64,000 nucleotides of DNA from Diphasiastrum complanatum. Taxonomy: Eukaryota; Streptophyta; Lycopodiopsida; Lycopodiales; Lycopodiaceae. The translations under genes and the position numbers were made by a program. The notes beneath the pieces were generated by a model. That model saw nothing but the letters and a program-made list of their open reading frames with translations, was not told the origin of the DNA and searched no databases. The stretch spans positions 21,640,709 to 21,704,708 of the forward strand of contig CM055103.1 in assembly GCA_029204225.1 (NCBI GenBank). The letters run 5' to 3'. This document shows positions 12,201-60,687 of the stretch, piece by piece (the first letter of the stretch is position 1; every line of letters starts with the position of its first letter).

Positions 12201-15200
12201 AATACCAAACGGACATCATAGGAAATCTATTGCAGGTATAAAGGATGATTTGTCAACAGACCCCAACTTCATCAACATTTAAATTGACATCCGAGCCCTT
12301 ACAAGAAATAGCTTTGAGATATTCTGAGTTGCAACCTGCACGGTGAATCTACAACCAGTCTAAAAAGCAGCTTCAAATCCAAAGAATCTCAACTATCTAA
12401 AAGACTCATTCACTGATTTGATAGGTTACGAAGAGCAGCTATATGCCTCATTTGAGAACTCTTGATGACCATTTGAGAATAAATGTCCTCCACCTGAAGT
12501 CTATCACATGGAAAGATTCAGAAAGTTTTTCCTGAATCTTTTGCGATCATAAATCAATCAGTTAAATATTATAGAACCATTACTTATTGTATGAGACATA
12601 GGAGTTTACATATGCATATCAAAAACTCTAAGAATTTTTTAAGATGGGCCATGTTAGGCCTAGTAAGTCCCCTCGGGGGGGCTCCAGTTATTTTAGTTGA
12701 TAAAAAAGACGGAGGTACTCGTCTGTGTGTGGACTTTAAAAAGTTAAATAAATTAACGATTAAAACCGTTATTTTGTACCTCGAATGGATGAACTGGTTG
12801 ATCCGTTACATGCTGCGAAGTACTTCACCAAAATCGATTTAAGATCAGGGAATAAAGAGTGAGGATGTGGAAAAAACCACGTTTATGTCTATGTATAGTT
12901 ATTATGAGTTTCTGGTTTTACCATGACAAATGCTCCCGCGACTTTCCAATAGATGATAAACGATCATCTTCGTCCATATCTGGGAAAGTTCGTCATAGTT
13001 TACTTGCCCATCTGGTTTACCTCATTTGTTGGAGATACCCCACACTTGTTGGGGGAGCATCTCTGTGGATTTTATTGTAGGATTACCAAGGACACGGAAT
13101 TTGATGGATTCGATCTTCGTCATGGCAGACAAGTTCACTAAGATGGCTCATTCTATTGCCACCGGAAAGAAAGTGACAGCTCAACAAGTCGCAAAATTGT
13201 TCATTGATTATGTAGTGAGAATGGGCTTCCAAACTCCATTGTCTCAGACAAAGATCCCAAGTTCACAGGAACATTCTAAACAATAGTTTCACCAAGCTGG
13301 GAACACAATTGCGGAGGAGTAGTAGTGAAGATCCACAAACGGATGGGCAGATTGAGAGAGTCAACCAGGTCCGAGAGGATATGCTTAAAGCATATGTTAG
13401 TGAAACACAGACTAAGTGGGTGAAATATTGCCACTAGTAAAGTATGCGTACAATGACAAAAAAACATTGTCTATAGGGACGAGCCCATTTGAGCTCAATT
13501 ATGGATTCCAACCGACAAGTCCAACGACTCTAGGGATGTTGGAATATCAATCCACACTCTAGAGAGAACTATCAAACAGGGCGGATAGCTCAATGGTAGA
13601 GCATCCCATCCGGTATGAGGGAGAACCTGGGTTCGAATCCTAGTCTGTCCATCCATATTATGATTTATGGATTTCTAACATGGTATCAGAGCCAAGTTAG
13701 ACCTAACAGTTCATGGTGTCAAAGCCATGGCTAGGTGGCCCAAGTTGTGGGGCAGGTGACAGCTAGGACCCCAACCAAGTGTGGCTTGAGGGGGGGTGTT
13801 GGAATATCAATCCACACTCTAGAGAGAACTATCAAACAGGGCGGATAGCTCAGTGGTAGAGCATCCCATCCGGTATGAGGGAGGTCCTAGGTTCGAATCC
13901 TAGTCTGTCCATCCATATTATGATTCATGGATGGTATCAGAGCCAAGTTAGACCTACTAGTTCATGGTGTCAAAGCCATGGTTAGGTGGCCCAAGTTGTG
14001 GGACAGGTGACAACTAGGACCCCAACCAAGTGTGGCTTGAGTGGGGGTGTTGGAATATCGATCCACACTCTAGAGAGAACTATCAAACAGGGCGGATAGC
14101 TCAATGGTAGAGCATCCCATCCGGTATGAGGGAGGTCCTGGGTTCGAATCCTAGTCTGTCCATCCATATTATGATTTATGGATTTCTAACAAGGGATTCC
14201 CACAAAGGTACCTAGTGCTGCAATGTTCTTGACTCAGATGCAGGCTGATTTGAATTTAACACATCAAAGTCTTTTCAAGGTTGAGCTAGAGCAAAGACTT
14301 ATGTACGTGGAAATTGTTCATACAAGGAATTTTCACCAAGGTAGTGTGGACCATGGCAAATTATTAGAAAGGTCAATGAGGTAGCTCATAAGTTGCAATT
14401 GCCTGAGGGATGCAAATGCATCAATTTTTCATTTAAGTCGTTTGAAGAAGTGCTTGCATGGAGGTGACAACCTAGTGGGAAAAGTCATAGCCCTACAAGA
14501 ACAAGATATCACAGATCATGGAGATGAAAAAAATATAGAGTGAAGGTGGCGACGACTGAGAAATTCTATGATCCCCGAGTTTTTGGTAGCTTGGAAAGGA
14601 TTAGCATTTTTCGAAGCGACACGGGAGAGTCAAGCCCAACTACAAAGGTCCTAGCCTGAGTTTGTCATCGAGGAGCGATGACAGTCTGGGGAGAGAAAGA
14701 ATGTTAGGATCCAGTCATGGATCCAACATATTATGGCGAGAGTGGTAACCCCAGAGGTCATAGGACCAGTTTCAGATTGTCGATGACTTCCCATCAAAGG
14801 CATCTGGGGCCAGTCGTGACTAGGTGTGTTGCAGTCACAACCCGATGTACTTGCATGCGAAGTGTTGCATGGCGAGTTTGGTAGAGCTGACGTACAATAG
14901 ACCAAGTTAACCCGTGACTTGGCGGGCAGTGACTAGGGTTAGTCGGCACATGACCAGTGTGGTCCTATAGACAAATGTGTGCAACGGGCATGGGGTTGGC
15001 ATGGCATTAAGACATTCTATCCTTGAGTCAATCCGGGTAGACTTAGTAGGCCAAGTGGACTGATAGACCAAACTATTAGGCAGTGGGCTTAAAGGCTTGG
15101 GGGAGAAGCTTAGAGTTACCGGAGTACACACGACCTCTGAATCCTTTGTAGAAAAACTCACAAATCTCAATTATCATTGATTAGAATTAAGGACCTAATT

Positions 15201-31681: not shown

Positions 31682-34600
31682 GTATGCAATCTGGTGTGGC
31701 AATGCGTTGCTTGATTTAAGAGGGAATTAATCTATCAATGCCCTATCTTTTAGACCAGCAGACATGTATGTCTAGGATAAGGAAGTTCGCATTTGAACCT
31801 TAGGAACAGTCGCAAAAACGTTCAACTATGCAAATGCGACGTCAAACGGATTCTCACTGCTTTTGTGGGCTGGATTCGGTGTTGCCTGTGATTTAGCGCA
31901 AAATTTGATAACATGCGGTAGTCATTTTAGTATCACAGAAACACAATGCACTGGCTGACAGTTTGACGTAGGTAAATTGAGTTCCTTATATTCGAGCTGA
32001 CTTCCCGAAAGTTGTAGATGAACACATTTGAAATTGGATTATATATGCATTGCCGGGCTCACTTACTTGTCTATCAAAAGCTGGCCCCCACCATTCAATC
32101 CACAATGAAGCCATAATAGTTTTTTAATCAAGTGCGTGCGCTACTTTATTGAGGTAGAGTTTGCAGAGTAGCATTCATTAAGCATGATTTCCAACCATTT
32201 ATAGTTTTATGATTTGGTTTTTCAATACAGTTGGGTGGCTGATTGCTTATGCTCCTAGGCCAATAATCAAACACAATGTTTGTGCCTTCTGGCACGGTTT
32301 AGGAAGTCATGCTCATTGCTCTTTAAAAGGAGTAGTATTTTTTCAGCGAATCTAAAAACTCCATCGATCTCATATATCGGGTTAAATGATTTCCACTTCA
32401 GCTTTTATGCGTTTGATTGTGCTTATTTCAGATGCTGAGTTTGATTGTTTCGATTTTGCCTGACAGATTGGAATTTATTGATTTATTTCAGGTGAAGATT
32501 CCAACACCAATACAGAAGAGTCAGATGTAAGCGGTTCAGATGGAGAGGATCCCTCGTGGATTTCTTGGTTTTGTGGTTTGAGAGGAAACGAGTTCTTTTG
32601 TGAAGTTGATGAAGAATACATACAAGATGATTTCAATCTTAGTGGCCTCAGTAGTCAAGTACCATATTATGATCATGCACTGGACCTGATTTTGGACATA
32701 GAACCGCCGAATGGTGCGTATGTCCTGCAAGATGCAGTGGGTTTCTTTTGTTTGTGGGACAAGTGGGGTTTACTGTGGTTATTGTGTCTGGACATCTGAT
32801 CAAAACGGAGCACTCAGGGGTTACTAGCTATAGAAGTGAATGGAGTTTTTAAGGTGCTCACTGCTATTGAAATTTGAGTTTGATATCCTTCGTTTTTTGA
32901 GTGTCAAGTAGTTGATTTTTTTTGGTTTTGTTGTACCATTTAACTAGGAAATTGGTCCATAATTGCAAACAAAGGCTGACAAATGACATCAGACAAATGC
33001 AATTAGAAAGCACTTTGAAAACTGTGAAATTACACCTCCTTTGAAGTTTGAACATGCTTTAAACATATTAATGTTGAAACATGTTGAAGCTCATTTGTAA
33101 GTTTGTAAACATGATTCTATGCAGCTCAATTGTATTAATGAACAAAAAAAAATCCGAGAAGTTGAGAATTGGACACTCCACAAGTCACAAATTACAACCT
33201 TTTTTTTTCAGAAACAAACATGATTCGAATATCATAATTTACTTTGTGGATTGTACCTGTGGCACTTAAAAATTGGACCGCCCAATCCTAGCTTAGTACG
33301 TAGTTTCCAAAATCTCCTCATCCTTGTCCTTATCTTGATGTTGTTGTAAAACATGGAGCTTTATGTTCGTGCGGCGAGGACAATCTTTGACAAGATGTTT
33401 GCCAAGACAAAAAGCATAATCCGTCTTTCTTGGCCTTGTCCTTTTGTTCTGGACTGAGAGGAGACTTGTTGTAAGCCTGATGAGCCAAAGCAAATGCCTC
33501 TCTGCGCTTCAAAGTCTGCTGCATCTAGATAGGATCCCTCTGCAATAAGTTCTTCTGACCAGCTTGGCCAAACTCTCGCGAACCCTTCTTCTGGGGCCCA
33601 CTTGCCACTCCAGATTCAGCCTTGTTATGCACGTTACCTTTGAAGTTAAGGGCTGTTGCAACGGCCTTGTAATAGATCCTAACACCACAGTAGGGCAAAC
33701 ACTAACTGATCCACCCAACCTTGCCTACTCCCTGATATAGAGTAAGCCCCTCCTAGCCCAGTGTGAGGACTGGTAGCATGCTACTGCCAAGTGTCGGCCA
33801 CGTGGCACTGACGTGGTCGACTGCACGTCGGGACCCAACTGGGGGCCCTATCCTGCTGACAGGGTCCCTAGGCTGTGTTAGGCCCGCCATGGCTATGGAC
33901 CGTGCTGGGGCACACTACTCACACTGTCTTGCCCTGTTGGTCATGTACGCTGGACACGACCCTGACTGTGGTATCTGACCTATCTGTGTTCTCTAGGGTT
34001 CGGCACTGGTTACGAGCTCGTAACACTCCCTCCCCCTTAAGAACCGTCTTGGTCCTCTAAGACAAAGTCTGGAAAAATCTTGCGAAGGACGCTGCCTCTT
34101 TCCCAAGTGGCATTCTCAACAGGCTGATCATTCCACTTAACCAGATATTCTCGGTATAGAGTATGACGAGTCTGCGTCTCTCTACTATCAAGAATCTCCT
34201 CTGGTTCATGTGGAGGTTGTTGAGGATCCAATGGGAGAACTAGAACACTGTCCCCTACCAGATTGTCTGATCTGGTTAAGGCTTTTCGTAACTGACTTAC
34301 ATGAAAGACTGGAAAAACCTTACTGCTGTGTGGGAGTTCTAGTTCATAGGTGACCTCGCCTAGTCTCCTACTGATGGTAAAGGGACCACAATACCTTGGA
34401 GACAACTTAGCACACACTCCTGATTTGAGGGTTTTAGAGTCAACTGGGACTCTCAAGTAGACTTTCTCACCAGTGGAGAACTGCACATCCCGTCTGTGTG
34501 GATCTGCATAATGCCTGGCTCGATCCTGGGATTGTCTAATGCTACGCTTAGCATGTTCTATCATCTGGTTTAGGTCTTCTAAAAAGTTTCTGGCTGCTTC

Positions 34601-37600
34601 AACTTTTTCTTGTTTAAACCCTACAGCTGTGGGTGAGCGTGGCTGAAAACCGTACATCAGCATAAATGGGCTGTATCCCGTAGCTGAATGTTTGGTACTG
34701 TTGTAAGCAAACTCTAATATCGAGAGATACTCCTCCCAATTAGTCTGCTTCTTGCTGACGTATGCACGAAGCATATCCTCCAGACTTGATTTACCCTTTC
34801 TGTTTGACCGTCCGTCTGTGGATGGTCGGTGGTACTCATATTAAGTTTAGTATGGGATGATGGAATACTGCCCTCCAAAAATTTCCAGTAAACTTACTGT
34901 CCCGGTCGCTGACTATGCCGAAAGGTTGACCGTACAATTTAAATAGCCCGTCTACAAACAACCTTGCTAACTCTGGAGCTCTAACGGTTGTTTTGGTCGG
35001 AATAAAATGAGCCATTTTGGTCAGACGGTCAACTGTGACCCATATAGCGTCATTACCCTTTTGGGTTTTAGGCAGGCCTACTATAAAATCCATGGAGATA
35101 CTCTCCCATTTACCAGCTGGTATTTCTAAGGGATGCAACAACCCTCCTGCCTTTAAACGCTCTGCTTTATTTACTTGACATTTCTGGCAACTGGTTACAT
35201 ACTGGTGGACGTCCTTTTTCATACTGGGCCAGAAAAATTGCCTACGAAGAAGCTCATAGGTCTTCTGTATGCCTGGGTGTCCCGCGCTAGGATTGTCATG
35301 ACATTCATATAGGACCTGCTGCCTATAATCCTCTGAATTGGGGACACATACTCTATCTCTATAGAGCAAGTACTCATCCTGAATGGAATACTGTTTCCAT
35401 TTGAATCCTTGAGTCAACTGACCCTCAACCACTGGGGTTTGCTTGGGTAATACAGGCTCAGAATCCTCAACGTCATCTGACGACGTATACTCGGACTCAT
35501 CGTCATCCTCAACGGAAGCTGCCGTATTCTTGGATGAACTGGTACCAGCCCCGGGAACTAGTTATGGAGTCTGTAACTGTCTGTTCTGGACTGAGTTTCA
35601 GATAATAGAGAAGAATGCATCATGCTGGCATTTCCCTCTCAAGGACTCGAGTAACTCATTACGAATCTGAGTAAAACTCAGCTCGTTTATCATAGGCATT
35701 CTGCTAAGGGCATCTGCTACTGTATTGAATTTTCCACGCCTATATCTGATAGACATGTCAAACTCTTGCATCAACTCTGCCCAACGAGCTTTCCGACCTC
35801 TCATGGTCTGTTAGGACCTCAAAGTTGGCACCATACAAATAATGCCTCCAAGTCTTAAGGGCATGGACTATAGAAAAGAGTTCCTTTTCATAGGCACTGT
35901 ACCTAGTTTGAACTGGCGCGAGTTTTTTACTCTCGAACGCAACTGGTCGTCCACCCTGAGTTAGCACAGCACCTACTGCAAAGTCGCTAGCATCTGTTTC
36001 GACCACAAATGGCTGATTGGGATCGACGACTTTTAAAACTGGTGCTGTAGCTAAGGCTGTTTTGAGAGCATCAAAGCTCTCCTGTTGTGCGGACTCCCAA
36101 ATGAACTCCTTTCCCTTCCCCTTAAGGAGATTTGTCATAGGGATTGCTATCTGAGCATATTCCTTGACAAATCGTCTGTAATATCCCGCCAGACCAAGAA
36201 AGATTTGAAGTTCCAAAATATTCTGAGGTCTCAGCCAACTGAGTATGGCTTTAACCTTATTTGGGTCCATCTTAATCCCATCTGAAGAGATAATGTGACC
36301 CAAATATGCTACTTCTTCAACGAAGAATTCACACTTGGATTGTTTAGCATAAAGCTTATGCTTTCTGAGTAGTCGAAACACCTTTCTGAGGTGTTTTAGA
36401 TGCTCCTTCCTCGTTTTGCTGTAGACGAGGATGTCATCTAAAAATACGACTACAAACTTACCCAAGTATGGTCTGAGGACACTGTTCATCAAGGTCATAA
36501 AGGTAGCTGGAGCATTTGTGAGCCCAAATGGCATCACCTTAAACTCATAATGACCGTGACGAGTCCTAAAAGCTGTTTTCGAGACATCTTCTGATTTTAT
36601 ACGGACTTGATGATATCCCGATCTGAGGTCTATTTTGCTGAAAAACTTAGCCCCGTCGAGTTGATCAAACAACTCGTCTGCCCGAGGCATAGGGTATTTA
36701 TTCTTAATTGTGACTTTATTGAGGGCTCTGTAATCTACGCAAAGACGCATAGACCCCTCTTTCTTTTTCACCAATAGGACTGGTGAGGCCCATGGTGAAC
36801 TACTGGTCTGAATTTGGCCTTTCCCAAGATAGTCTGTTAACTGCCTAGTTATTTCTTCATCCTCTGTTCGGCTGACCTGATACGGAGGTTTAGAAACAGG
36901 TGCTGTACCTGGTACTAGGTTTATTACATGATCTACCTCTCTGCTAGGTGGTAAACCATGTGGCAAATCTTCAGGAAAAACATCTTTAAATTTAGACAAT
37001 AAAGTTTCTAATTTACTGATTTTCTGCTGAATAGAACTGGAAATAGAAACTTCAGGAATAAACTGAAAGTCACATAAGAATACCTGATGGTCTTCGTCTC
37101 CGATTAGCTGACAGAGCTCTGAACTGCAGACCATAGGGCTGTTGGGAACATCATGCTCCCCATGCAACTGGATCTCTCGGCCTTATACTGAAAGCTGAGG
37201 GTGTTCTCCTGATAGTTTCTGTGGAGGGAAGGTCCTAAACTGTAGAGCCAATCTCTCCCGAGAACAATGTCTGTTCGATCCAGGTGCATTATCTGAAAGT
37301 TTATTTCATCTTGGTACCCCTGAATACCAAGATTTAACTTACTTACCATAGGTTCCCATATTTTTTTATCTTCACCCTTAGCTAATGAAACTATGTACCT
37401 ATGCTGACTAGGTACTTCTGGTAGTTTAAGCTTTTTAAATAGGGTGTGGTTGATGAAATTATGGGTTGCCCCATCATCAACCATGACTCTTACTGACTGA
37501 TTACCAACTTTCCCATGCATACGTACTAGGTCATGCGGCCCAAAGCTGAAGGGTCTCGCTAGCATTGCAGAGGTCAGCTGGCAACAATGTTCATGATCTT

Positions 37601-40600
37601 AGTCATCCATATTTTTAATCTTTAAAATTGCTTCTCGATACTGCGAGATATATTGCATGAGGGACTTGTCCATTACTGTTCTTTCCCAGGCTCTATCAAG
37701 TTCATTCTCTGGTAGAAATTCTCTTAGGAAAGCTTCTTCAAAAGCTTTCCATGACCGGGGAGTCTGCCCAGTCTCCTGGAGATTTAACCACCACTTATAG
37801 GCCATAGGCCCTAAAGAAAGACTGGCCTCAATTGCTTGCAAATGGTCAGGGGTCTGTTTAAGAGCATGAATGTTCTTCCATTTGCTGAGGAAGGTTTGTA
37901 GAATATCTGCATTTCTATCCTTCTCTTCCCCATTAAAAGTAGGAGGCTTTAAATCTTTAAAAACACTGGGGTGAGACCGTAAAGTCTCACCCGAAACTGA
38001 TGGAAGTGGAGAAGGGGATAACTGAGAAGTGGAGGGAAGGCTTCCTTTCGCGGAACTCAAAATCAAGTTTTTGAGTTCAGCGAACGAGTCGTCCACACTG
38101 GACTTGAAATTGGCTAATGCCAACTTCAGTTCATCCACTTCTGTTACCAATTGGAGGAACTGCTCCTTGGTAACCAGTTCGTCGAGTTCTTCGGCGAACT
38201 GTTCCTGTTCTTCTACTTCCATGGGTTCCTTCCCTTTTCTGTAAGCCAAGGCTTCTGTTTCAAGTTCGTCGAAGCCTCTCTTCGGGGGTTGATCAGGTCC
38301 CTGAGGAGTGGTCATCTTCGGAACTGAAAGAGAGCTACCTTAACTTCTGAAGGAAAAAAAGTCTAAAAGACTAATTTACAACTGTACAAGGAAAAGGAAA
38401 GATGACTTAGCTGTTTGTGAGGACTGTACCTCCACAGAGAGGATCAAGAAAAGCCCTTTCAGCTCTTCCTCCACTGATTTGAGGTTGGAAAATGTGCAAC
38501 AAGATCTGAAACTTTTGCTATCCCCCCTCGCTGGTCTGACAGCATCTCAATTTGTCCACAAAATGGCAAGTCTGAAGTCCAAAAACCCTTCTGAATTCTG
38601 AAATTTCAGAAGTCTCCTGCTCGCTGATCTGGTAGGAATCCTCTTGCTCCAAATCTCTGACGTTGGGGCCCGAAAACTTGTCCAAAAATCAGATTTTCAG
38701 AAGCACTGGCAGCGCTGGCCCTGCTCCTCTTTTTTGGTTTCAAACTCGTTGAGAACCAGTAAATTTTTCCCTGGGAATCAGATGCAGGTCTCTGGCTATA
38801 CAGCGATGGAGGTGCTGGCTTCTTCCTTCTCTAATTTCGCTGGGAAAACTATGGAGAATCTTCTGAACTCAGTGAGAAACAGCTGTTTTTCCAGCGAGTT
38901 ACCTACAATTGGAATCTGACTCCTTGCTACAGCGATCCTCCTCCTCTATTCCTCTCCAAGAATCTGAGAAACACTTCCTATCTTCTAATAGCTTTCTCTA
39001 CTGCTGCTCCTAACTCCCTAGGATGGAGATGGCTCTGATACCAGTGTAATAGATCCTAACACCACAGTAGGGCAAACACTAACTGATCCACCCAACCTTG
39101 CCTACTCCCTGCTATAGAGTAAGCCCCTCCTAGCCCAGTGTGAGGACTGGTAGCATGCTACTGCCAAGTGTCGGCCACGTGGCACTGACGTGGCCGACTG
39201 CACGTCGGGACCCAACTGGGGGCCTTATCCTGCTGACAGGGTCCCTAGGCTGTGTTAGGCCCGCCATGGCTATGGACCGTGCTGGGGCACACTACTCACA
39301 CTGTCTTGCCCTGTTGGTCATGTACGCTGGACACGACCTTGACTGTGGTATCTGACCTATCTGTGTTCTCTAGGGTTCGGCACTGGTTACGAGCTCGTAA
39401 CAGGCCTCCTCCAAGGTCTTGCACCTTTCATTAAGAGTTGAAGGCCTCAACTCTTCGCGAAGGCCCAAAATAAACTTGTGGACTACGATCCACTCGGGAA
39501 TCTCTTCTGGAATCTTGATAAGCGTCTCACGATACTTATCAGCATATTCCTGCACCATGTATTGCCTCTGACGATGCAAAAACCAAGCATCCGTCGCACA
39601 CACATGCTCATGTGGAGGAATGAACCGAGCTCTAAAAGCCCGCTTGAAATCAATCCAGGTGGATGGAGCCTGATTAAACTTTAACAACTTGCGCCACCAC
39701 CTGTCAGCAAAATCAGTGAGATGGTAAGCAACTTTGCGGACTCGCCAACCCTCCTCGGTTGGGGCCCGCTTCAAATCAAAATAATCGTCCCACTGATGCA
39801 ACCACTGGTTTACAACATCAGTTGTTCTCTGGGAAGTATTTCCTACGAAATGAGTAAGCTTTAAATCTTTGTCTTCTGGGTAGAGTGGAGGTAACACAGG
39901 ACGAACCGCAGAAGACAGAAATGGATAAGGATAAGGCGGAGCATGTTGCGAGGAAGACGCAAAACCACCAACTACAGAGGAGAGCATCTCTCGCATCTCT
40001 GCGATGGTCTTCTCCATACTATCCATGCGAGCTTGCACAGAAGAGGAAACATCAGCAGACGAACTAGTAGCCACTAAAGGCGGGTTGCGGTCAGGGCTAA
40101 GCACAGGGCTGGGTGGTGGTGATGGAAGAGCAACGGGAAGGCTAAGCGGAATATCAACTCTATCATCTCCCATTATGAAACAAAAACAGAGACAACACGA
40201 AATCAAGCTAGAAATTGCACTAATTGAAACACACTCACGAAAGGGAAATGTGGAAATTTTCAGCTTATTCACAATTTAGAACTGAAAGAGAAAAAGGCAA
40301 TTGGAAAGTAGTAAAACTTTGGGGAAAACACAAAGCCAAGGACAGGTAGTACTTCCCTTGCATCCTACGCTGGTACAAAAGTCGGTAAAAAACTTTTTTT
40401 GGGCCCCAAATTGGCTTGAAAGTCGGAAAAAAAACAGGAAAAAAGCGGGCTATTTGACGTCGAATTTCTTCCAAACGGCAAAAGCTTTTCACAAATTGTC
40501 AATTGGTAGTAGGTCGCCCTCCTACTAGGCCCAATCTGCACCCTTAACAGCAGAAACCGGAGAAAAATCAGAGAAGTTATGCCCAATCCAAATCTGACCT

Positions 40601-46800: not shown

Positions 46801-49800
46801 CCTTGATGACAAACGCTACAAGCTGCAAGCCATGATGGATCATCAAGCATTTGTGGTCCAAATGTGGACAATATTCAAGCCTCAAGTTCCTCTATGACAA
46901 AGACATGGTACATGGTCCACCTAGATTTGTTGAAGTGCTAAAATTTTGTGAGGCATGTGATGGGGAAACATCATAGAATGAAGTTTCCTTCAAGTGGAGC
47001 ATATAGAGCAAAAGGCATCTTGTAATCAATCACGGTGATATATGGGGATAGACACAAACACACTTTTTGATGCTCATCCTAATACATTGGTTATCTGCTC
47101 TCAGATATGCTCTCCATTCTGCCTTTTCCTTGTCAAACTATCAGGAACTGTGTTGAAATACCCAGGGAAGCCTCAATTTTTGAAGTATGCTGTTTTGTTC
47201 TTAGTGCCTTGGAGGACACAGAACACTCTTCTGTTCTACTCAATGCTCATCAATGTGGCTGCGTCTGTCTTAGCATTCTCCTGGATTAGCCTTCTGATCA
47301 GATGCTAATTGCCTCTCAATTGGGCTGAATTCCACTTCTACTTAATGTGTTTTTAATGGTGATGAGTCTTGTATTGCTCTTGCTAAAGTAATCTGCTTTG
47401 TTGGGCCATTCAGGCTCCTGTCTAGCTGGGACTCTTTGCACAGATTTTCCTGATTTATATTTTTTTGTCTCCTGTGCTATCTGTGAAGTTATATTGATGA
47501 AGGATGATTTGACAAATACGTGGTGGGTTGGTTGATGCATTTTCTTCGCGATTTGTTTCCACCTTGCTAATTTGTGGTTCTGTTACTTCAGGAGCTTTCA
47601 GCGATGTAGTTTTCAAGTTGATGTCTGGTCTGAATGTTCATTCTTGACCTGGTTGCTTTTCTTGGGGTCTAAGAGTAGTTATTTTCTTTGATAGTGGTTT
47701 TTATCCCCAGTTATCACTTCATAGAAATTCGTACATTCTGCTTTGCATTGTCGACTGATACTTTGGGGTGACATTCAGCTATTTGAGCTACATAGTCGAC
47801 TGTTCATGTTTCTCCACTATGCTGGACCACATGCACCATGGTTCCTCAGGTGGTAGATATATTGTCCTTAGGAGCATGTGGCAGATTGATCTCTCTTTGG
47901 AATGCGATAATTAGAATCCACCTTTTTGGATGTAAGCACCTAGTTTGTAGCATGCCTTCAATGATTTTGTCTCGACTTTTCTCAATGAAATTGGAATGAG
48001 TGTGCCAAGTTCCATGGTCATTCAATTTATGTGAATGTTCCTGCCCAGCATTCTTGCTAAATCATTGATGACAATTGTTGATTAGGTCCACCAGATGGCT
48101 CATGCGTGGATATTTTCTTTCATAACAAATCCATAGCGACTGGCCCCCAACTGGATTTTTATTGTTTGCTCCACAGTACCCTTTTGTGACTAAAGTCTCT
48201 TTTTTCATTTTGTGCTGTGATCCACGGAGCTCACTTTTCTGGTGAAAACTTTGCCCCATCAAATGGATGCTATCTTGTACTTTCTTCCTTACTCTTACCG
48301 ATCTAACAGGCTCTTTCTTTGGAACCTTTTTGGTCACCCCAAGCAGTGGATCCTGAGCTGGGGTCGCGACTTCCACTATAGATCAGCAAAGCTGATGTGT
48401 TCTCAAGAGATGAGGACAGTTGGTTGGGAAACCGTGGTTTGTGTATCTTTCTCATTTGACTTGAGTTTCATGGCCTATCTAACTTCCTCTATGTTCATGT
48501 CTTTACAACACAGTGCCTAGTGCTTGCCTTCCAACCTTATTTGCCGTCCATGTAGCCGCTTTGAAGGCCAGATTTACTTAGCCTTGATTTGCAGGGCCCT
48601 TGGCCCTTATGGAGTCCATTCCTGCCAGCAGCGATGTTTCTCTCAATAACAGGGTCCGCTATTTGTAATCAATCATTTGTTTTCTTTTTAGTTGTTCCCC
48701 TAGCTGAATTTGGCTCAAATAAATTCGTACCGAGACTTTGTCCCACAGACATTTATGATGTATCGATAAAGGTTGGAAGTTGGGATCTATTATATTTGTT
48801 GTCTGTGAGACCTTTGAATAATGAACATAGTGCTTGATGCATTTTTTATGAGAGCTAGTGTGTACCATCCATTCAATTCACAGGAAATTTAGTTGACCTA
48901 GATTGTGAACATACACTCTAGCTCCTTTTCAATACATGTATTTCCATCAACACATTCTTTTTGGTGGACAGCATCAAAAGTTCAATAGCCTTCACCTAAC
49001 AGCTCTACAATTGGTGTTCTCTGAACGTTTTTGAGAAAGCTGAAGCAATAGAATGCACCTTTCGTTATGATTGTTTGGTCCAAAGCTTAGAAACCCATTC
49101 CGACCCTTTTGGGCTGGAACGTACTGGGTCGGAACGTTTTTTTTTATTAGCTCTAAATTAAAATCGACTGATATAGTTAAGATAGCCATAAACTATCAAC
49201 AACAAATCACCAAATCTACACCTAAGATACAGCTGCATCTGATATGTGGATAACCATACTGGGCTGCTGAGTAATCGAACTAATACATCAGATTCATGAG
49301 TAATCCATAATGGCCATTTGGTCCTGCTGCGCCTAGGCTACATGATTACCTGCTAGATATCAGAAATCTGGATGAGTGACCTCCACGGCCGGCACTGGGG
49401 CGATCAGATTCATGAGTAATCCATAATGGCGATCCACTTAGGCTACATGATTAAAGTGCCACCTGCTAGATATCAGAAATCTGGATGAGTGACCTCCACG
49501 GCGAGCACCTGGGGCGATCATAAGGACCAGCTTGATCTGGCAAAAATGATTGAAATTCTTGCAGCTCACATTGATCCTAGAATCGTTATTCTGTTCCTTA
49601 TCTCGATTCCTGATTGTCATGGAGGTAAGTAGGAACTAAACATGGAGTTTTTTTTTCCTGTTCTTCACATCAATACAAGAAATTATATTGGGGTCTTCAT
49701 ACGTTGACTACATTATTTTGGTTTCGCATTATGTATTGTGTGACAAAAGGCATAGTTGGTCATATTCTGCTAGTCTGCTTCATTAGGGTACATTCCAAAG

Positions 49801-52344
49801 CTTTGCTTGCAGAACACTTGATGTTCAGGTGCTTGCAAGGAACTCAATTTTTGTTACAGTTATTCAGCAGACTGTTTTAGAAAACCAAAGTGGGCATATT
49901 AAGAATGTGGAAAGTGAATGTATATGTTCCTTGTTACTCACCTTCCCGGAGCTTGCAAAAGGACAGATGGTTGGAGAAATGGTGTGAATATCCTAATCAG
50001 GAATCAGGTTAAACCTGGACAACATCTAACGTTTCACATAGTGTTTTGCAGATGACATATTGACTGAAGAACAGCATGAAATGGTGGAGTCTGCAGCTGA
50101 AATGCTTTACGGGCTTATTCACGTGCGTTACATCTTGACAAGCAAAGGGCTAAATGCAATGGTAAATTCCTACTTTGACAAGGGACAGCTGCGGGGCTTC
50201 AAAATAACAAAGCTGAACTTTTTCACTCGCTGTGTTGTAGAAATTGTCATGCTCCTGCATTGTAAAAACCTGATCAAAATTTCTTGCTCCTGTGATGTGC
50301 AGCTTGAAAAGTGCAAGAATGTCGATTTTGGCAGGTGCCCGAGGGTGTATTGCTCAGGACAGCCTTGTCTGCCAATGGGTCAGTCGGACATTCCAAGGAC
50401 AAGCACTGTAAAAATATTTTGTCCAAAATGTGAGGACATCCACTACCCAAGATCAAAATATCAGGGGAGTATCCTTTTGAAAGAATATTGTAGCTGAACG
50501 TGAGCATGTTTATGATGTTATTTTAAGAAATATAAATAGGGATCCTTGTCAATTCTTGCCATTACAAGTGCTTCTTGCCATCACAAGTGTTTGTACGAAC
50601 CATAGTTGCAGCGAATCTCGATTCGCTGGGTCTGCGATTCGCGACCCAGAATCGCAAAAAAAAAAAAAAAAATTTTCTTTTTTTTTGGAAAAATAGCTTA
50701 TTGCTGAAATTTTTTTTAGGGGATTAATGGTCAAACCAGCGTTTTGCCTCTCATAAGTGCAGTAGATGAGGCACAAACAAATCTTATTTTCAGTAGCTAT
50801 CCGGTTGTCATTTGCTCTGGTTTTCAGTAAATGTTAATGCTACAGTTTGGACTATCAACTGTATGGATGATGATCACTTTTGCAATTGGTTCACTGGAGA
50901 TGTGAGTGCAATGTACATACAGTTGGGGGCATAAATATTGGGCCCTTCTCGGCGCGCATTTGGACCCCATTTTTATCTCCAGGGGGGCGGTGGCATTTTT
51001 ATCTACAATGTCTATATAGCAAGAAGCTCTAGGGGGTTCGGGGGACAGTAGCCCCCCGGGAAACGGGGGGTTCGGGGGGTTCGGGGGGCGGTAGCCCCCC
51101 GAGAAACGGGGGGTTCGGGAGGCGGTAGCCCCCTGGTGGGGGGTTTGGGGGGCAACGCCCCCCAACGGCGGGGTCCGGGGGCTGCCGGTAGACCCCGGCC
51201 CCGACGGTAAGGCCTCTTCACGATTTAGCCTTCCAACTTCCCGAGTGAAAACACACTTTTTGGTGTTTCGCACCCGAAACAGTCGGCAAACTACACAATC
51301 ATAATCCCCTCGATCAGAGCTTTCATCTGATATCCATATTGCCTAAAAAATTTTCAAAAAAAAAAAAAAATCGATTCTACACGATTCTGGGAAAATCCCG
51401 AATCGTGAATCGGAATCGCGATTCTGATCGCAATTCTGAATCGCGATTCAGGAATCGCGCTGCAACTATGGTACGAACCTACTGGAATAACAATTAAAGT
51501 TGCAGCATTGGCTTGCTAATGTGGCACTTAATTCAAGCTGATTAGTTTATGCTTTTCACTTCTAATTGTTAAACTGTACGATGTGTCATCATACAATTCT
51601 GGTATATGCCAAAGTTTTTATGAATTTTGGCTGCTATTTTATCTTGCAAGGTAGATTCTATCATCACCATTGACTGCTTCTTTGCCAGTGAAAAGTCCAT
51701 AGTTCGTCTCTTAATAAAATTGGGTGATTTGATTATAGCTAATGTTCCAGTCGTGTCATACATTTGTCAATCATCCCAAGATGTGCCCTACCCTTACTGG
51801 TCTGGTACGATGAGTGTTTAAAGCATCATTGCGAGATTCTTACTGTTGTTGGAAAAGTTGTCTGGCTCTACTCACCAGTACCATGCACAAGTGAATCAAT
51901 AGTTATGTTCACGATGTCCCTACCTAGCTTGATTTTCTATGCTATTATTCATGAAAGCTAGCTCTTATTTGAATTTGTGCTTGATTAGTGCTAATGTGAC
52001 TAGTCCAATTAAGGATCAGGACAATAGACTTCATGAATAACCTTCTTGAACTTTTCCAGAGACACTTTTCGGTTCAGCAGTTATTAATAGACATTGAACT
52101 TGGACACTTCAAGCATTAAAAGACGTGATGATGGAAGTTCATAATCAATCTATGAAGTGAAGATAGGGTCAATCATGGCTTATTGTAATGCTTGACTGTT
52201 ACATAAGATATCGATGGTGCATACTTTGGAACCACCTTTCCACATCTCTTTTTAATGACGTATCCTTACATCAAGCCGGCCAAACCTACTCAAAGCTATA
52301 TACCAAGGATCTTTGGCTTTAAACTTCACAAAAGTGCAAGGTGA
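31417..52344 (+). CDS. CKB: Protein kinase CK2 regulatory (beta) subunit, complete 5-exon gene
   Basis: Exons 31417-31681, 32492-32713, 50052-50161, 50303-50468 and 52208-52344 total 900 nt: 299 residues plus stop. The plant-type N-terminal extension (about residues 1-100) has the SVPSTST motif and an acidic [20 protein letters not shown] segment. The CK2-beta core follows: [56 protein letters not shown]. The zinc finger uses C211, C216 (CPRVYC), C239 and C242 (CPKC), and mediates dimerisation of the beta subunits. The C-terminus [20 protein letters not shown] to FGFKLHK docks the catalytic alpha subunit. All introns are GT-AG and all phases join. CK2 is a constitutive Ser/Thr kinase acting in clock, light and growth control in plants. 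Intron 2 is 17.3 kb because of nested retrotransposons. Confidence 0.93.
32492..32713 (+). CDS. CKB: CK2-beta exon 2 (residues 89-162)
   Basis: Acceptor TTTCAG. Encodes [20 protein letters not shown] and on to [11 protein letters not shown], and ends in phase 1 before donor GTGCGT. Confidence 0.93.
32714..33292. other. Left end of CK2-beta intron 2
   Basis: Ordinary intron. It contains no LTR or polypurine tract that could close the outer gypsy element on this side. Confidence 0.5.
33293..33667 (-). pseudogene. Outer gypsy gag, C-terminal part
   Basis: Continues the gag interrupted at 39403: [20 protein letters not shown], then [20 protein letters not shown]. The nucleocapsid segment is frameshifted in a T run at about 33409-33413, so that [13 protein letters not shown] is in another frame than DGLCF. 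The frame ends at TAA 33295-33293. No pol follows to the left, so the outer element is gag-only or truncated. Confidence 0.75.
33663..33667. repeat. Target-site duplication GGCCT (left)
   Basis: GGCCT directly precedes the inner element and is repeated directly after it at 39403-39407. Confidence 0.9.
33668..34025 (-). repeat. 3' LTR of the inner chromovirus
   Basis: Minus-strand ends TGTTACGAGC...TATTACA. On the plus strand it is followed by the polypurine tract complement. Confidence 0.93.
34026..34038 (-). other. Polypurine tract of the inner chromovirus
   Basis: Minus-strand AAGGGGGAGGGAG directly adjoins the 3' LTR. Confidence 0.85.
34037..34835 (-). pseudogene. Integrase C-terminal half and chromodomain (inner chromovirus)
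   Basis: The open frame 34774-34037 reads [38 protein letters not shown], the [20 protein letters not shown] and [14 protein letters not shown] segments, and a C-terminal chromodomain-like [34 protein letters not shown]. Upstream codons ([14 protein letters not shown]) lie in another frame, so at least two small indels separate this from the integrase core. Chromodomains target such elements to heterochromatin (family knowledge). Confidence 0.85.
34836..35432 (-). pseudogene. Integrase core (inner chromovirus)
   Basis: Contains the zinc-binding HHCC region ([31 protein letters not shown]) and the core [20 protein letters not shown] with catalytic Asp, then [18 protein letters not shown] with the second Asp. 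The frame breaks right after, and the catalytic Glu region is displaced by a frameshift. Confidence 0.88.
35433..35804 (-). pseudogene. RNase H tail / connection (inner chromovirus)
   Basis: [20 protein letters not shown] and [16 protein letters not shown] are the typical RNase H end of gypsy pol. The frame is shifted relative to the RT/RNase H part and stops at 35598. The acidic linker to integrase (35433-35597) has no clear frame. Confidence 0.8.
35805..37167 (-). pseudogene. Reverse transcriptase and RNase H (inner chromovirus)
   Basis: Long open frame. [58 protein letters not shown] and the intact catalytic box [12 protein letters not shown]. RNase H begins [20 protein letters not shown] and continues to FEVLTDHE, where a frameshift breaks it. 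The N-terminal end overlaps the protease frame at about 37104-37167 because of another frameshift. Confidence 0.9.
37104..37565 (-). pseudogene. Aspartic protease region (inner chromovirus)
   Basis: [20 protein letters not shown], then [20 protein letters not shown], the retropepsin active site with DDG in place of the usual D-S/T-G, and [14 protein letters not shown]. It runs out of frame before RT. Confidence 0.8.
37599..38315 (-). pseudogene. gag, lacking the zinc knuckle (inner chromovirus)
   Basis: 238 residues. A coiled-coil-like acidic N-terminal part ([20 protein letters not shown]), then the capsid-type domain ([57 protein letters not shown]). It stops at TAA right after NMDD, 33 bp before the protease frame, so the CCHC nucleocapsid segment expected there is missing. 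Confidence 0.85.
38316..39030 (-). other. 5' leader of the inner chromovirus
   Basis: Untranslated leader between PBS and gag. CT-rich plus-strand sequence with no ORF of note. Confidence 0.6.
39031..39043 (-). other. Primer-binding site of the inner chromovirus
   Basis: Minus-strand TGGTATCAGAGCC one base inside the 5' LTR; initiator tRNA-Met type. Confidence 0.9.
39045..39402 (-). repeat. 5' LTR of the inner chromovirus
   Basis: 358 bp, near-identical to 33668-34025. Followed by TSD GGCCT at 39403-39407. Confidence 0.93.
39403..40173 (-). pseudogene. Outer gypsy gag, N-terminal part
   Basis: [20 protein letters not shown], a Pro/Ser-rich start, [18 protein letters not shown], then a capsid-type domain ([77 protein letters not shown]). 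It breaks at TLEEA, exactly at the inner element's target duplication, and resumes at 33667. The frame is open from 40173 with no stop. Confidence 0.85.
40174..40850 (-). other. Leader of the outer gypsy element
   Basis: Non-coding. I found no TGGTATCAGAGC-type PBS here, so the primer is another tRNA or the site is mutated. Confidence 0.4.
40851..41457 (-). mobile_element. Probable LTR of the outer gypsy element
   Basis: On the minus strand the block starts TGTTAGAGTCCAGTTAGG at 41457. It is GC-rich and lies upstream of the outer gag, where the 5' LTR should be. The inner boundary is unclear (somewhere between 40850 and 41000). No partner LTR is present left of 33293. Confidence 0.5.
41458..43309. 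other. CK2-beta intron 2, no gene
   Basis: Ordinary AT-rich sequence. Two imperfect repeats of CCATGCATTCT...GCGGAAATCCGCAC type lie at about 42395-42425 and 42455-42485. Nothing coding. Confidence 0.45.
43310..43565. repeat. (AG)n followed by (GT)n compound microsatellite
   Basis: Pure AG at about 43311-43392, then an irregular GT-rich tract with interspersed TTGAGATT units to about 43565. Confidence 0.85.
43620..43765. repeat. Degenerate TTAG-rich repeat
   Basis: Repeats of GTTAGAACTTAGGA-like units with one GGTTAGGGTTAG core. It vaguely recalls telomere repeats but is too degenerate to call telomeric. Confidence 0.5.
43788..43870. repeat. (GA)n tract, LINE tail
   Basis: Pure GA run adjoining the LINE 3' end; (TC)n when read in the element's direction. 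Confidence 0.85.
44240..44580 (-). pseudogene. LINE C-terminal zinc-finger-like segment
   Basis: [40 protein letters not shown] with C-x2-C...H...C spacing typical of plant LINE ORF2 C-termini, ending [10 protein letters not shown]. Confidence 0.78.
44590..45680 (+). pseudogene. LINE reverse transcriptase segment (inverted part)
   Basis: Intact YADD active site near 44733-44744 ([10 protein letters not shown]). Open to about 45055, then a frameshift, with continuation in frames 44998-45336 and 45081-45419, and a stop near 45500. The N-terminal endonuclease domain and early RT motifs are absent. Confidence 0.8.
45681..46139. other. CK2-beta intron 2, AT-rich
   Basis: No feature seen; an imperfect TTAGTAATT-like repeat only. 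Confidence 0.4.
46140..46343 (+). mobile_element. Truncated LTR related to the 14.7-15.2 kb LTR
   Basis: Shares ACCAAGTTAACC, GGCGGGCAATGACTAGGGTT and GGCTAAGTGGACTGAT with 14905-15063, with substitutions. It ends GGCTTCTAACA at 46343, a plausible LTR terminus. The 5' part is missing. Confidence 0.5.
46440..47040 (+). pseudogene. Copia protease/pre-integrase relic
   Basis: In one mostly open frame with several stops: [16 protein letters not shown] (eroded protease), then [20 protein letters not shown] and [16 protein letters not shown], matching the copia [14 protein letters not shown] region. Downstream is a decayed pre-integrase ([20 protein letters not shown]). Both catalytic and zinc-binding residues are mostly lost. 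Confidence 0.6.
47041..49290. other. CK2-beta intron 2, no gene
   Basis: Balanced composition with scattered short ORFs, none with a recognisable domain. Could include old transposon DNA. Confidence 0.4.
49291..49520. repeat. Two-copy tandem repeat, about 115 bp unit
   Basis: Units 49291-49406 and 49407-49520 both run from GATTCATGAGTAATCC to GGGGCGATCA. They share AGATATCAGAAATCTGGATG and differ by small indels. Confidence 0.85.
49521..50051. other. Right end of CK2-beta intron 2
   Basis: Unremarkable; ends with the pyrimidine-poor acceptor GTGTTTTGCAG. Confidence 0.5.
50052..50161 (+). CDS. CKB: CK2-beta exon 3 (residues 163-199)
   Basis: Acceptor TTGCAG. Encodes [20 protein letters not shown] to LTSKGLNAM, phase 0 at the end, donor GTAAAT. 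Reading on through the intron gives a false 145-residue ORF. Confidence 0.93.
50303..50468 (+). CDS. CKB: CK2-beta exon 4 (residues 200-254), zinc finger
   Basis: Acceptor [23 protein letters not shown] to [16 protein letters not shown]. Ends in phase 1 (GGGA) before donor GTATCC. Confidence 0.93.
50593..50600. repeat. 8-bp target duplication GTACGAAC (left)
   Basis: Exact copy at 51471-51478 on the other side of the element. Confidence 0.85.
50601..51470. mobile_element. Non-autonomous hAT-like TIR element (870 bp) in CK2-beta intron 4
   Basis: Perfect terminal inverted repeats CATAGTTGCAGCG (50601-50613 and 51458-51470) and 8-bp duplications GTACGAAC, which point to the hAT superfamily. 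Both subterminal regions are packed with GATTCGCGATTC-type palindromes. The left one folds as a CTGGGTC/GACCCAG hairpin. A-runs border both ends of the interior. There is no transposase; the only long ORF is a translation of the G/C-rich core. It lies 132 bp past the exon 4 donor. Confidence 0.85.
51031..51205. repeat. G/C-homopolymer-rich inverted and direct repeat core
   Basis: Units such as CGGTAGCCCCC, AAACGGGGGGTTCGG and runs of 5-7 G or C repeat in both orientations. Strong hairpin and G-quadruplex potential inside an otherwise AT-rich intron. Confidence 0.8.
51479..52207. other. Rest of CK2-beta intron 4
   Basis: No gene or repeat seen. Confidence 0.5.
52208..52344 (+). CDS. CKB: CK2-beta exon 5 (residues 255-299 and stop)
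   Basis: Acceptor CATAAG at 52207. Completes codon 255 (Asn), then [20 protein letters not shown] and ends [10 protein letters not shown] with TGA 52342-52344. Missed by ATG-based ORF scans. Confidence 0.92.
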
Positions 52345-58398: not shown

Positions 58399-58399
58399 T

Positions 58400-58981: not shown

Positions 58982-59809
58982 ATGTCATCCATGGGTGGAT
59001 ATTTGTTAGAATCTAGGGAGAAACTAACTTTCACAAACTATTCCATATGGAAAGTGAGGATGGAATCACTACTTGTGATCCATGACCTCTTGGATATTGT
59101 TCTAGAAATTGAGGAAGAGCCTCAAGGAGCCCAAGAACAATTAAAATACAAGAAGAGGGCTAGATTGGCCCTACATTGTCTAAAGATGAATGTAGGCAAT
59201 GACCTCTTGAAAGAGGTGGCTTCTTGTGCCTCATCAAAAGAGGCTTGGGATTCACTAAAGAACCTTTACGAATCCAACAACAATTCAAGAGCGCTTATGC
59301 TGAGAAACTTGATCTTGCAAAGCATGAAGGGAAGTGGAGAAAATGGACAAGAATATGTCCTAAGGATAAAGTCTTCAAACAAAGAATTGGGATCTATAGG
59401 AGAAAAGATTCAAGATAATGAACTAGTACTGGTGATATTGAATGGATTAGGTGATGAGTTCTCTAAACTAGTTCAATCTTTTGCAATTCAAGACCAACTT
59501 CCATCAATAGATAAGTTGCATAATGTTCTTGTGGCTGAGGAGAGTAGGATTCTACACCTCAAGACAAGAATGGGGTCTATGTCACTACATGGTGGTGATG
59601 AGAAAGCAAACTACACATCAAAGGGCAAGAAGAAGACTCAACCATTCAAGAAGAACCAAGGCAAGGAGGCCGAGGTCAAGGATGGAGGATCTACCTCCAA
59701 AGGGAAGCAAAAGAACAAAGCCAAGATAAAGTGTTTCTTTTGTGGAAAGAAAGGACACTTTGCTTCCAAATGCTATAAGAAGAAGAATGCACAAGGGAGT
59801 GAAAATTGA
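58982..59809 (+). CDS. Copia A gag polyprotein part with CCHC knuckle
   Basis: 275 intact codons. N-terminal LTFTNYSIWKVRMESLLVI (gag UBN2-type start with the W of NY..W), KEAWDSLKNLYESNNNSRAL, EYVLRIKSSNKELGSIGEKI, a Lys-rich linker, and an intact zinc knuckle CFFCGKKGHFASKC near the C-terminus. It ends with TGA at 59807-59809, where copia elements usually read on into protease, so the stop separates gag from pol here. The frame is open and probably young. Confidence 0.88.
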   Translation: MSSMGGYLLESREKLTFTNYSIWKVRMESLLVIHDLLDIVLEIEEEPQGAQEQLKYKKRARLALHCLKMNVGNDLLKEVASCASSKEAWDSLKNLYESNNNSRALMLRNLILQSMKGSGENGQEYVLRIKSSNKELGSIGEKIQDNELVLVILNGLGDEFSKLVQSFAIQDQLPSIDKLHNVLVAEESRILHLKTRMGSMSLHGGDEKANYTSKGKKKTQPFKKNQGKEAEVKDGGSTSKGKQKNKAKIKCFFCGKKGHFASKCYKKKNAQGSEN

Positions 59810-60687
59810 GGCAATTTTGCACAAGGGGAGGAGGAAGAGGATGGCTTTAACACATCCTTGATGGTAGCATCTACACCAAAATCAAGCCAAGAGACATGGT
59901 GGATTGATAGTGGGGCTAGCTCCCACATGTCATTCAACAAGCATTATTTTTCTACTTTACTTTCTTGTAATGATTTTAAGAAGTCAATCTACACTGCTAG
60001 TGTTAATGTATGATAGATGGCATAGGATCTATTACATTAAACTTAGGATCATCTAAGAGGATAGATCTTGATAATGTTTTGTATGTTCCATTCATTACAA
60101 AAATTTGTATAGTGTTGGTCAACTAATGGACAATGGACTAGATGTACATTTCAAGAATGGAGTATGTTCCATCTTGAAAAGTGATTGGTGCATAGCTAGT
60201 GGCATCAAGCAAGGAAGGATTTTAAGTTGGATGCTAATGTGGCCATTGAAAGTGTGAATATGGTTAGGGAGGAGTTGACTCAAGTGGAGCTTTGGCACAA
60301 AAGATTAGGCCATCCTAATCTTCAATCAATGGAGTCCATGGCATCAAAGGAGCTAGCTCTTGGCCTACCAAAATCATTCACAGAGCGTGGCAAAGTGTGT
60401 GAGGCTTGTGGCCTTGCAAAGTCACACAAGACTTCCTACAAGAGATCTTTGACAAGATCTACTTCACCCTTGGATCTTATTCATTCAGATGTACATGCTT
60501 TTTCTCATGAAAGTAATGGAGGTGCCTTAATGTATGTGACGTTCATAGATGATTGTACTAGATTCACTTGGATTGACTTATTGTCTAAGAAAAGCCCTGT
60601 ATATGAGGCTTTTGTGAAGTTTAAGTCTCTAGTGGAAAAGTAACTTAGTTCTTGCATTAAAGTTCTAAAATGTGATAATGGAGGAGA
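59810..60687 (+). pseudogene. Copia A protease and integrase N-terminal part, interrupted
   Basis: Protease WWIDSGASSHMSFNKHYF (DSGAS active site) at about 59900-59940. Frameshift near 60010-60110. Then an open frame 60227-60643: ELWHKRLGHPNLQSMESMAS, CEACGLAKSHKTSYKRSLTR (HHCC), HSDVHAF, YVTFIDDCTRFTWIDLLS. After a TAA, KVLKCDNGGD is cut at 60687 by the LTR of copia B. Confidence 0.85.

Follow-up and report, generated by a model that had tools for sequence, protein, structure and literature searches.

A candidate Helenus-type TRIM in tandem form, with tRNA-like sequence in its LTRs, at a locus of Diphasiastrum complanatum

Anatomy and insertion site of the array

The window, i.e., the whole stretch of 64,000 nucleotides (64 kb) of Diphasiastrum complanatum analysed here, carries at 13537-14191 on the forward strand a 655-bp array of the order LTR1-INT1-LTR2-INT2-LTR3, in which a single unit would comprise 404 bp. 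Delimited by sequence comparison, LTR1 (13537-13680) and LTR3 (14048-14191) are 144 bp long each, open with TGTT and close with AACA; LTR2 (13797-13931, 135 bp), the middle LTR common to both units, also opens with TGTT and is without the 3'-terminal 9 nt. Those 9 nt are the LTR 3' end just before the PBS and would abut the integrase recognition site. The two internal domains, INT1 (13681-13796) and INT2 (13932-14047), both 116 bp, begin with an initiator-tRNA-type PBS (TGGTATCAGAGCCA, at 13681-13694 and 13932-13945), which we take to match plant initiator tRNA-Met, and end with a G-rich PPT (GAGGGGGGG at 13788-13796 and GAGTGGGGG at 14039-14047). By blastn, LTR1 and LTR3 are 97.9% identical over 144 positions (three sites differ), LTR1 and LTR2 96.3% over 135, LTR2 and LTR3 97.0% over 135, and INT1 and INT2 94.8% over 116 (six sites differ). 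The array is bordered by the target site duplication AGGGA at 13532-13536 and 14192-14196, found by direct reading and by the joined-flank test described below. The three LTRs of 144, 135 and 144 bp claimed in the preliminary description were recovered almost to the base, and coordinates together with blastn reproduced its order LTR-PBS-internal-PPT-LTR-PBS-internal-PPT-LTR with the AGGGA duplications. No ORF in the window's list, which comprises ORFs of at least 120 aa, overlaps the array, and pattern search and blastn found the element at this one locus within the 64 kb.

The array lies in a decayed Ty3/gypsy integrase region (13011-14678, forward strand), as delimited by tblastn with two of the window's gypsy ORFs; this region is the insertion target and not part of the TRIM. 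For the joined-flank test, the flanks were fused over one copy of AGGGA and searched by tblastn with the gypsy integrase-chromodomain ORF at 34037-34774. One alignment crosses the junction, with 233 columns, 30.5% identity, gaps and three stops, and the E value of 2e-17 belongs to this alignment together with a short linked piece. With the same query, the filled sequence yields a left piece (E 8e-11) that ends 77 nt inside the element after a weak extension, and right pieces (E 2e-14) that resume at 14291. Since the integrase match crosses the joined junction, the whole three-LTR array at 13537-14191 is, as judged from this alignment, a real insertion, and a single one, in a decayed Ty3/gypsy copy. 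The proposed TRIM anatomy is thus borne out by the layout of LTRs, PBS, PPT and target site duplication as well as by the insertion test.

The ORF used as query belongs to a chromodomain Ty3/gypsy element on the reverse strand (33668-39402), with 358-bp LTRs of 98.9% identity, a 5-bp duplication AGGCC and a coding part distributed over several ORFs; a second gag ORF (39370-40272) adjoins it. This element carries the 14-nt PBS string TGGTATCAGAGCCA of the TRIM, a G-rich PPT and similar LTR tips. Likenesses of this sort are common to many plant elements, and because the resemblance goes no further, we claim no helper role for it; it is an example of the type of element that could serve as helper. 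Elsewhere in the window, an ORF at 50060-50497 on the forward strand matches the casein kinase II regulatory subunit (CK_II_beta, E 1.1e-27) and is possibly a piece of an intron-split host gene; upstream of it, at 49287-49520, lie two adjoining direct repeats of about 120 bp with 80% similarity. Two forward-strand strings at 58399 and 61727, one mismatch away from TGGTATCAGAGC and possibly the PBS of other LTR elements, flank a copia gag and pre-integrase region (58982-60643), and the copia gag in the window bears a DUF4219 domain match. This gag, the chromodomain gypsy element and the CK2-beta fragment, all of a sort typical of plants, point to a probable plant host.

tRNA-like segments of the LTRs

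Each LTR contains a tRNA-like segment, at 13579-13651, 13839-13911 and 14090-14162, all on the forward strand. ARAGORN called three tRNAs in the 64-kb window, one per LTR and all labelled tRNA-Thr(GGT), and the same three were the window's Rfam tRNA matches, scoring 50.3, 53.0 and 49.8 bits, respectively, against a gathering score of 29 (E 1.5e-8 to 1.1e-7). Both programs give a length of 73 nt, so that of the 72-nt segment previously described for each LTR the presence was retained in three out of three and the length was not. A box and B box lie at 13586-13596 (TAGCTCAATGG) and 13630-13640 in the first segment, at 13846-13856 (TAGCTCAGTGG) and 13890-13900 in the second, and at 14097-14107 and 14141-14151 in the third; the A box fits TAGCTCA(A/G)TGG in all three LTRs, the B box GGTTCGAATCC is identical throughout, and the box starts are invariably 44 nt apart, which is the normal spacing. 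Their agreement with the consensus, as originally reported, is thereby borne out in every LTR. A 24-nt A-box pattern allowing up to three mismatches matched these three sites only in the window, with none expected from 100 shuffles.

The arms give a more divided picture. Acceptor, D and T arms pair as described before, and these arms together with a four-pair anticodon stem contain no non-standard pair in any copy; the anticodon arm, however, is non-canonical, with 19 nt in all three copies against the 17-nt consensus (5 bp and a 7-nt loop), consisting of four outer pairs followed by A-A and 11 nt in between. In the minimum-energy fold this arm takes the form of four plus two pairs around a bulge. 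The tRNA-like RNA folds no better than its shuffles (28 to 50 of 200 shuffles fold as well, z -0.6 to -1.0); we therefore rejected folding energy as evidence and rely on the covariance-model match together with the boxes. As the anticodon arm is off consensus, the Thr(GGT) label is untrustworthy, and a functional tRNA gene was rejected since a canonical anticodon arm is absent from all three copies. An antisense similarity to a plastid 3'UTR family was weak (22.8 bits, with gathering at 68; E 0.035) and was taken as chance.

The ARAGORN labels and Rfam scores far above gathering are what a tandemly duplicated cluster of genuine tRNA-Thr(GGT) genes, formed without transposition, would also display. 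Such a cluster is highly improbable, given anticodon arms of 19 instead of 17 nt throughout, a repeat unit bearing LTR termini, PBS and PPT, and a 5-bp duplication and junction-crossing integrase match that mark one inserted piece. LTRs of such kind are, as seen here, annotated by ARAGORN as tRNA-Thr genes.

Similarity to the segments was also found outside the window. A phage search with the 73-nt unit of LTR2 returned 146 records, and among the 20 matches listed 16 were annotated tRNAs (six Thr, five Arg, three Val and two Lys); as these span four isotypes, the parent tRNA of the segment cannot be named. The external collections comprised bacteria, archaea, plasmids, phages and viral contigs, where silence says little on plants. 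The plasmids gave one record covering 59 of the 655 bases, all within the tRNA-like part. In the viral contigs, the A-box pattern matched five contigs, with four matches inside ARAGORN tRNAs (three Asn, one Gln) and one (contig L001) at a place without a tRNA call, while two PBS/internal patterns and a pattern that begins at the B box and extends one base beyond the tRNA-like 3' end had no match, and the gypsy ORF query confirmed no relative there. A PBS pattern and a B-box pattern likewise had no match in the genome contigs.

Promoter reading, proposed cycle and origin of the tandem

From sequence and structure, we consider the array to be probably a TRIM of the Helenus type, in which two units in tandem have the middle LTR in common, within an old Ty3/gypsy copy; the tRNA-like half of each LTR most likely represents a type 2 Pol III promoter and not a working tRNA. 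Intact boxes beside an off-consensus anticodon arm are to be expected of a promoter that has no function as a tRNA. The earlier proposal of a type 2 Pol III promoter in the LTR stands as the best structural reading, with the motifs present in three out of three LTRs, while Pol III use itself is the conjectural part of it. The primer, the helper, Pol III use and present-day mobility are features that we infer from the sequence.

The absence of a terminator does not contribute to this assessment. The element contains no TTTT, and the first one downstream begins at 14272; yet TTTT is likewise missing from 3914 of 5000 dinucleotide and 2628 of 5000 plain shuffles generated from the 260-nt unit, and from 46 of 83 GC-matched 260-nt windows, so that a missing Pol III terminator, not unusual for such a composition, was rejected as evidence. 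This unremarkable absence would suit an ordinary RNA polymerase II TRIM whose LTR had captured a tRNA or SINE fragment as a passenger, and so would the unexceptional folding of the tRNA-like RNA and the fact that box conservation has one locus only to be weighed against drift. We nevertheless regard a Pol II element with such a passenger as unlikely, because all three LTRs contain both Pol III boxes intact and at normal spacing although the anticodon arm is off consensus, and a scan of LTR1 for four TATA-like strings returned a single one, TATTAT at 13656, which lies downstream of the tRNA-like unit.

With the tRNA-like half as a putative Pol III promoter, the following cycle can be proposed. 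In the 5' LTR, TFIIIC would bind the B and A boxes, and Pol III would start near the tRNA-like 5' end, at about 13579. The opening 42 bp of the LTR would then correspond to U3, the tRNA-like segment to the start of R and the remainder to U5. The transcript would pass the PBS, the internal domain, the PPT and U3 before it reaches the tRNA-like segment in the 3' LTR and continues beyond; as the element is without TTTT, Pol III would be expected to transcribe the entire array. Priming at the PBS would be by initiator tRNA-Met; the tRNA-like 3' end is, as judged by eye, not complementary to the PBS, which makes self-priming unlikely, and for Helenus a tRNA 3' end not complementary to the PBS is likewise stated in the available part of Kojima 2024 (PMC10886601). 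Strong-stop synthesis, from the PBS to the tRNA-like 5' end, would yield a cDNA of about 102 nt that covers U5 and R and moves to the 3' tRNA-like segment, a transfer that would be possible even if the RNA continues past this segment, because R lies inside the transcript. The PPT would prime the second strand, and the enzymes of an autonomous LTR element would carry out integration with a 5-bp duplication.

Taking this further, a TRIM lineage of plants, separate from the Helenus elements of fungi, animals and Selaginella, may have captured a tRNA-type Pol III promoter, with R starting at the tRNA-like 5' end, so that one segment would provide both the promoter and the homology for strand transfer, no terminator would be needed in the LTR, and tandem arrays of Cassandra-like form would occur. 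This scenario is put forward tentatively, at somewhat less than even confidence.

Concerning the tandem itself, the two units may have derived from already divergent family members that were joined by recombination or template switching before insertion, and not from later unequal exchange at this site. Six of 116 sites separate INT1 from INT2, and three of 144 separate LTR1 from LTR3; the gap is small and no significance is attached to it. Had the duplication come later, the internal domains would be predicted to have diverged no further than the LTRs. On the other hand, recombination and tandem cDNA have both been proposed in print for tandem TRIMs and LTR elements, which may bear one outer 5-nt duplication, as far as the available parts of these papers go (PMC7215508, PMC11899658); Cassandra is reported to occur in short arrays with about three LTRs (PMC7215508), and rice LTR elements in tandems that have two internal regions, three LTRs and a 5-nt duplication (PMC11899658). 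Joining before insertion, although compatible with the reading as a Helenus-type TRIM, is on balance a doubtful option with perhaps a third of our confidence.

Comparison with known systems

Several known small elements resemble the array in part. Cassandra, likewise a TRIM of plants, has a Pol III promoter in the LTR and arrays of about three LTRs, and TGGTATCAGAGC is also the PBS string used in the search described for it (PMC7215508, in the part available). The two differ in that Cassandra has 5S rRNA sequence with promoter and terminator, whereas a tRNA-like promoter without TTTT is predicted here; a 5S rRNA match was found neither in the window at gathering score (Rfam) nor in 13450-14300 up to E 0.1, and membership in Cassandra was rejected, the LTR being without 5S rRNA-derived sequence. 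Retrozymes are small non-coding LTR elements of plants whose tRNA-Met PBS, PPT and LTR ends resemble those of Ty3/gypsy, according to the part of that report available (PMC4918200). Here, Rfam gave no hammerhead ribozyme match in the window at gathering score and none in 13450-14300 up to E 0.1, and membership in the retrozymes was rejected for an LTR without hammerhead ribozyme. tRNA-derived SINEs share the tRNA-like internal Pol III promoter; in contrast to the array, SINEs are described in the available part of Kojima 2024 as being without LTR, PBS, PPT and integrase (PMC10886601).

The closest counterpart is Helenus. Although the preliminary description had regarded a family of this kind as undescribed, the architecture is already published as Helenus/TRIMp3, according to the available part of the paper by Kojima (2024, PMC10886601), in which TRIMs whose LTRs contain tRNA-derived sequence are named Helenus and recorded from fungi, animals and a single plant, Selaginella moellendorffii. 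That paper also groups Helenus, Cassandra and Ajax as TRIMp3. The analogy to Cassandra drawn earlier is supported. According to the same part of the source, Helenus elements are non-coding and 311-1263 bp in size (the screen having covered less than 1000 bp), carry a box A with TRGCY and YGG and a box B with GGTTC in most families, contain a tRNA mostly predicted to be non-functional, and occur in tandem arrays in the case of LTR-11_DR; their origin is proposed to be a SINE insertion into the LTR, and Pol III transcription is expected, experimental validation lacking per Kojima (PMC10886601).

Compared with this account, the D. complanatum element agrees in size (unit 404 bp, array 655 bp, within the TRIM range) and in being non-coding, in tRNA-derived sequence in three out of three LTRs, in boxes TAGCTCAATGG or TAGCTCAGTGG and GGTTCGAATCC that match the box A and box B features in every LTR, in a PBS after the 5' LTR and a PPT before the 3' LTR, and in its 5-bp duplication AGGGA, 5 bp being also the length in plant and fungal Helenus families. 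Helenus-1_SMo, the one plant family in that paper, has an LTR of 120 bp and an internal region of 85 bp against 144 and 116 bp here. Judged by these lengths, the kind is known and the 144/116 family seems to be a new Helenus-type member. No plant report of tRNA-bearing TRIMs beyond Kojima 2024 was found among the matches listed, as judged by title and start of the abstract, and the main text of a 2016 survey of plant TRIMs contains neither 'tRNA' nor 'polymerase III' nor 'pol III' (PMC4717578). Since the available part of Kojima 2024 gives one plant only with a characterised Helenus family (PMC10886601), a second and tandem plant family would widen the kind, and the element would offer a system in which to test the R region and the Pol III start predicted above.
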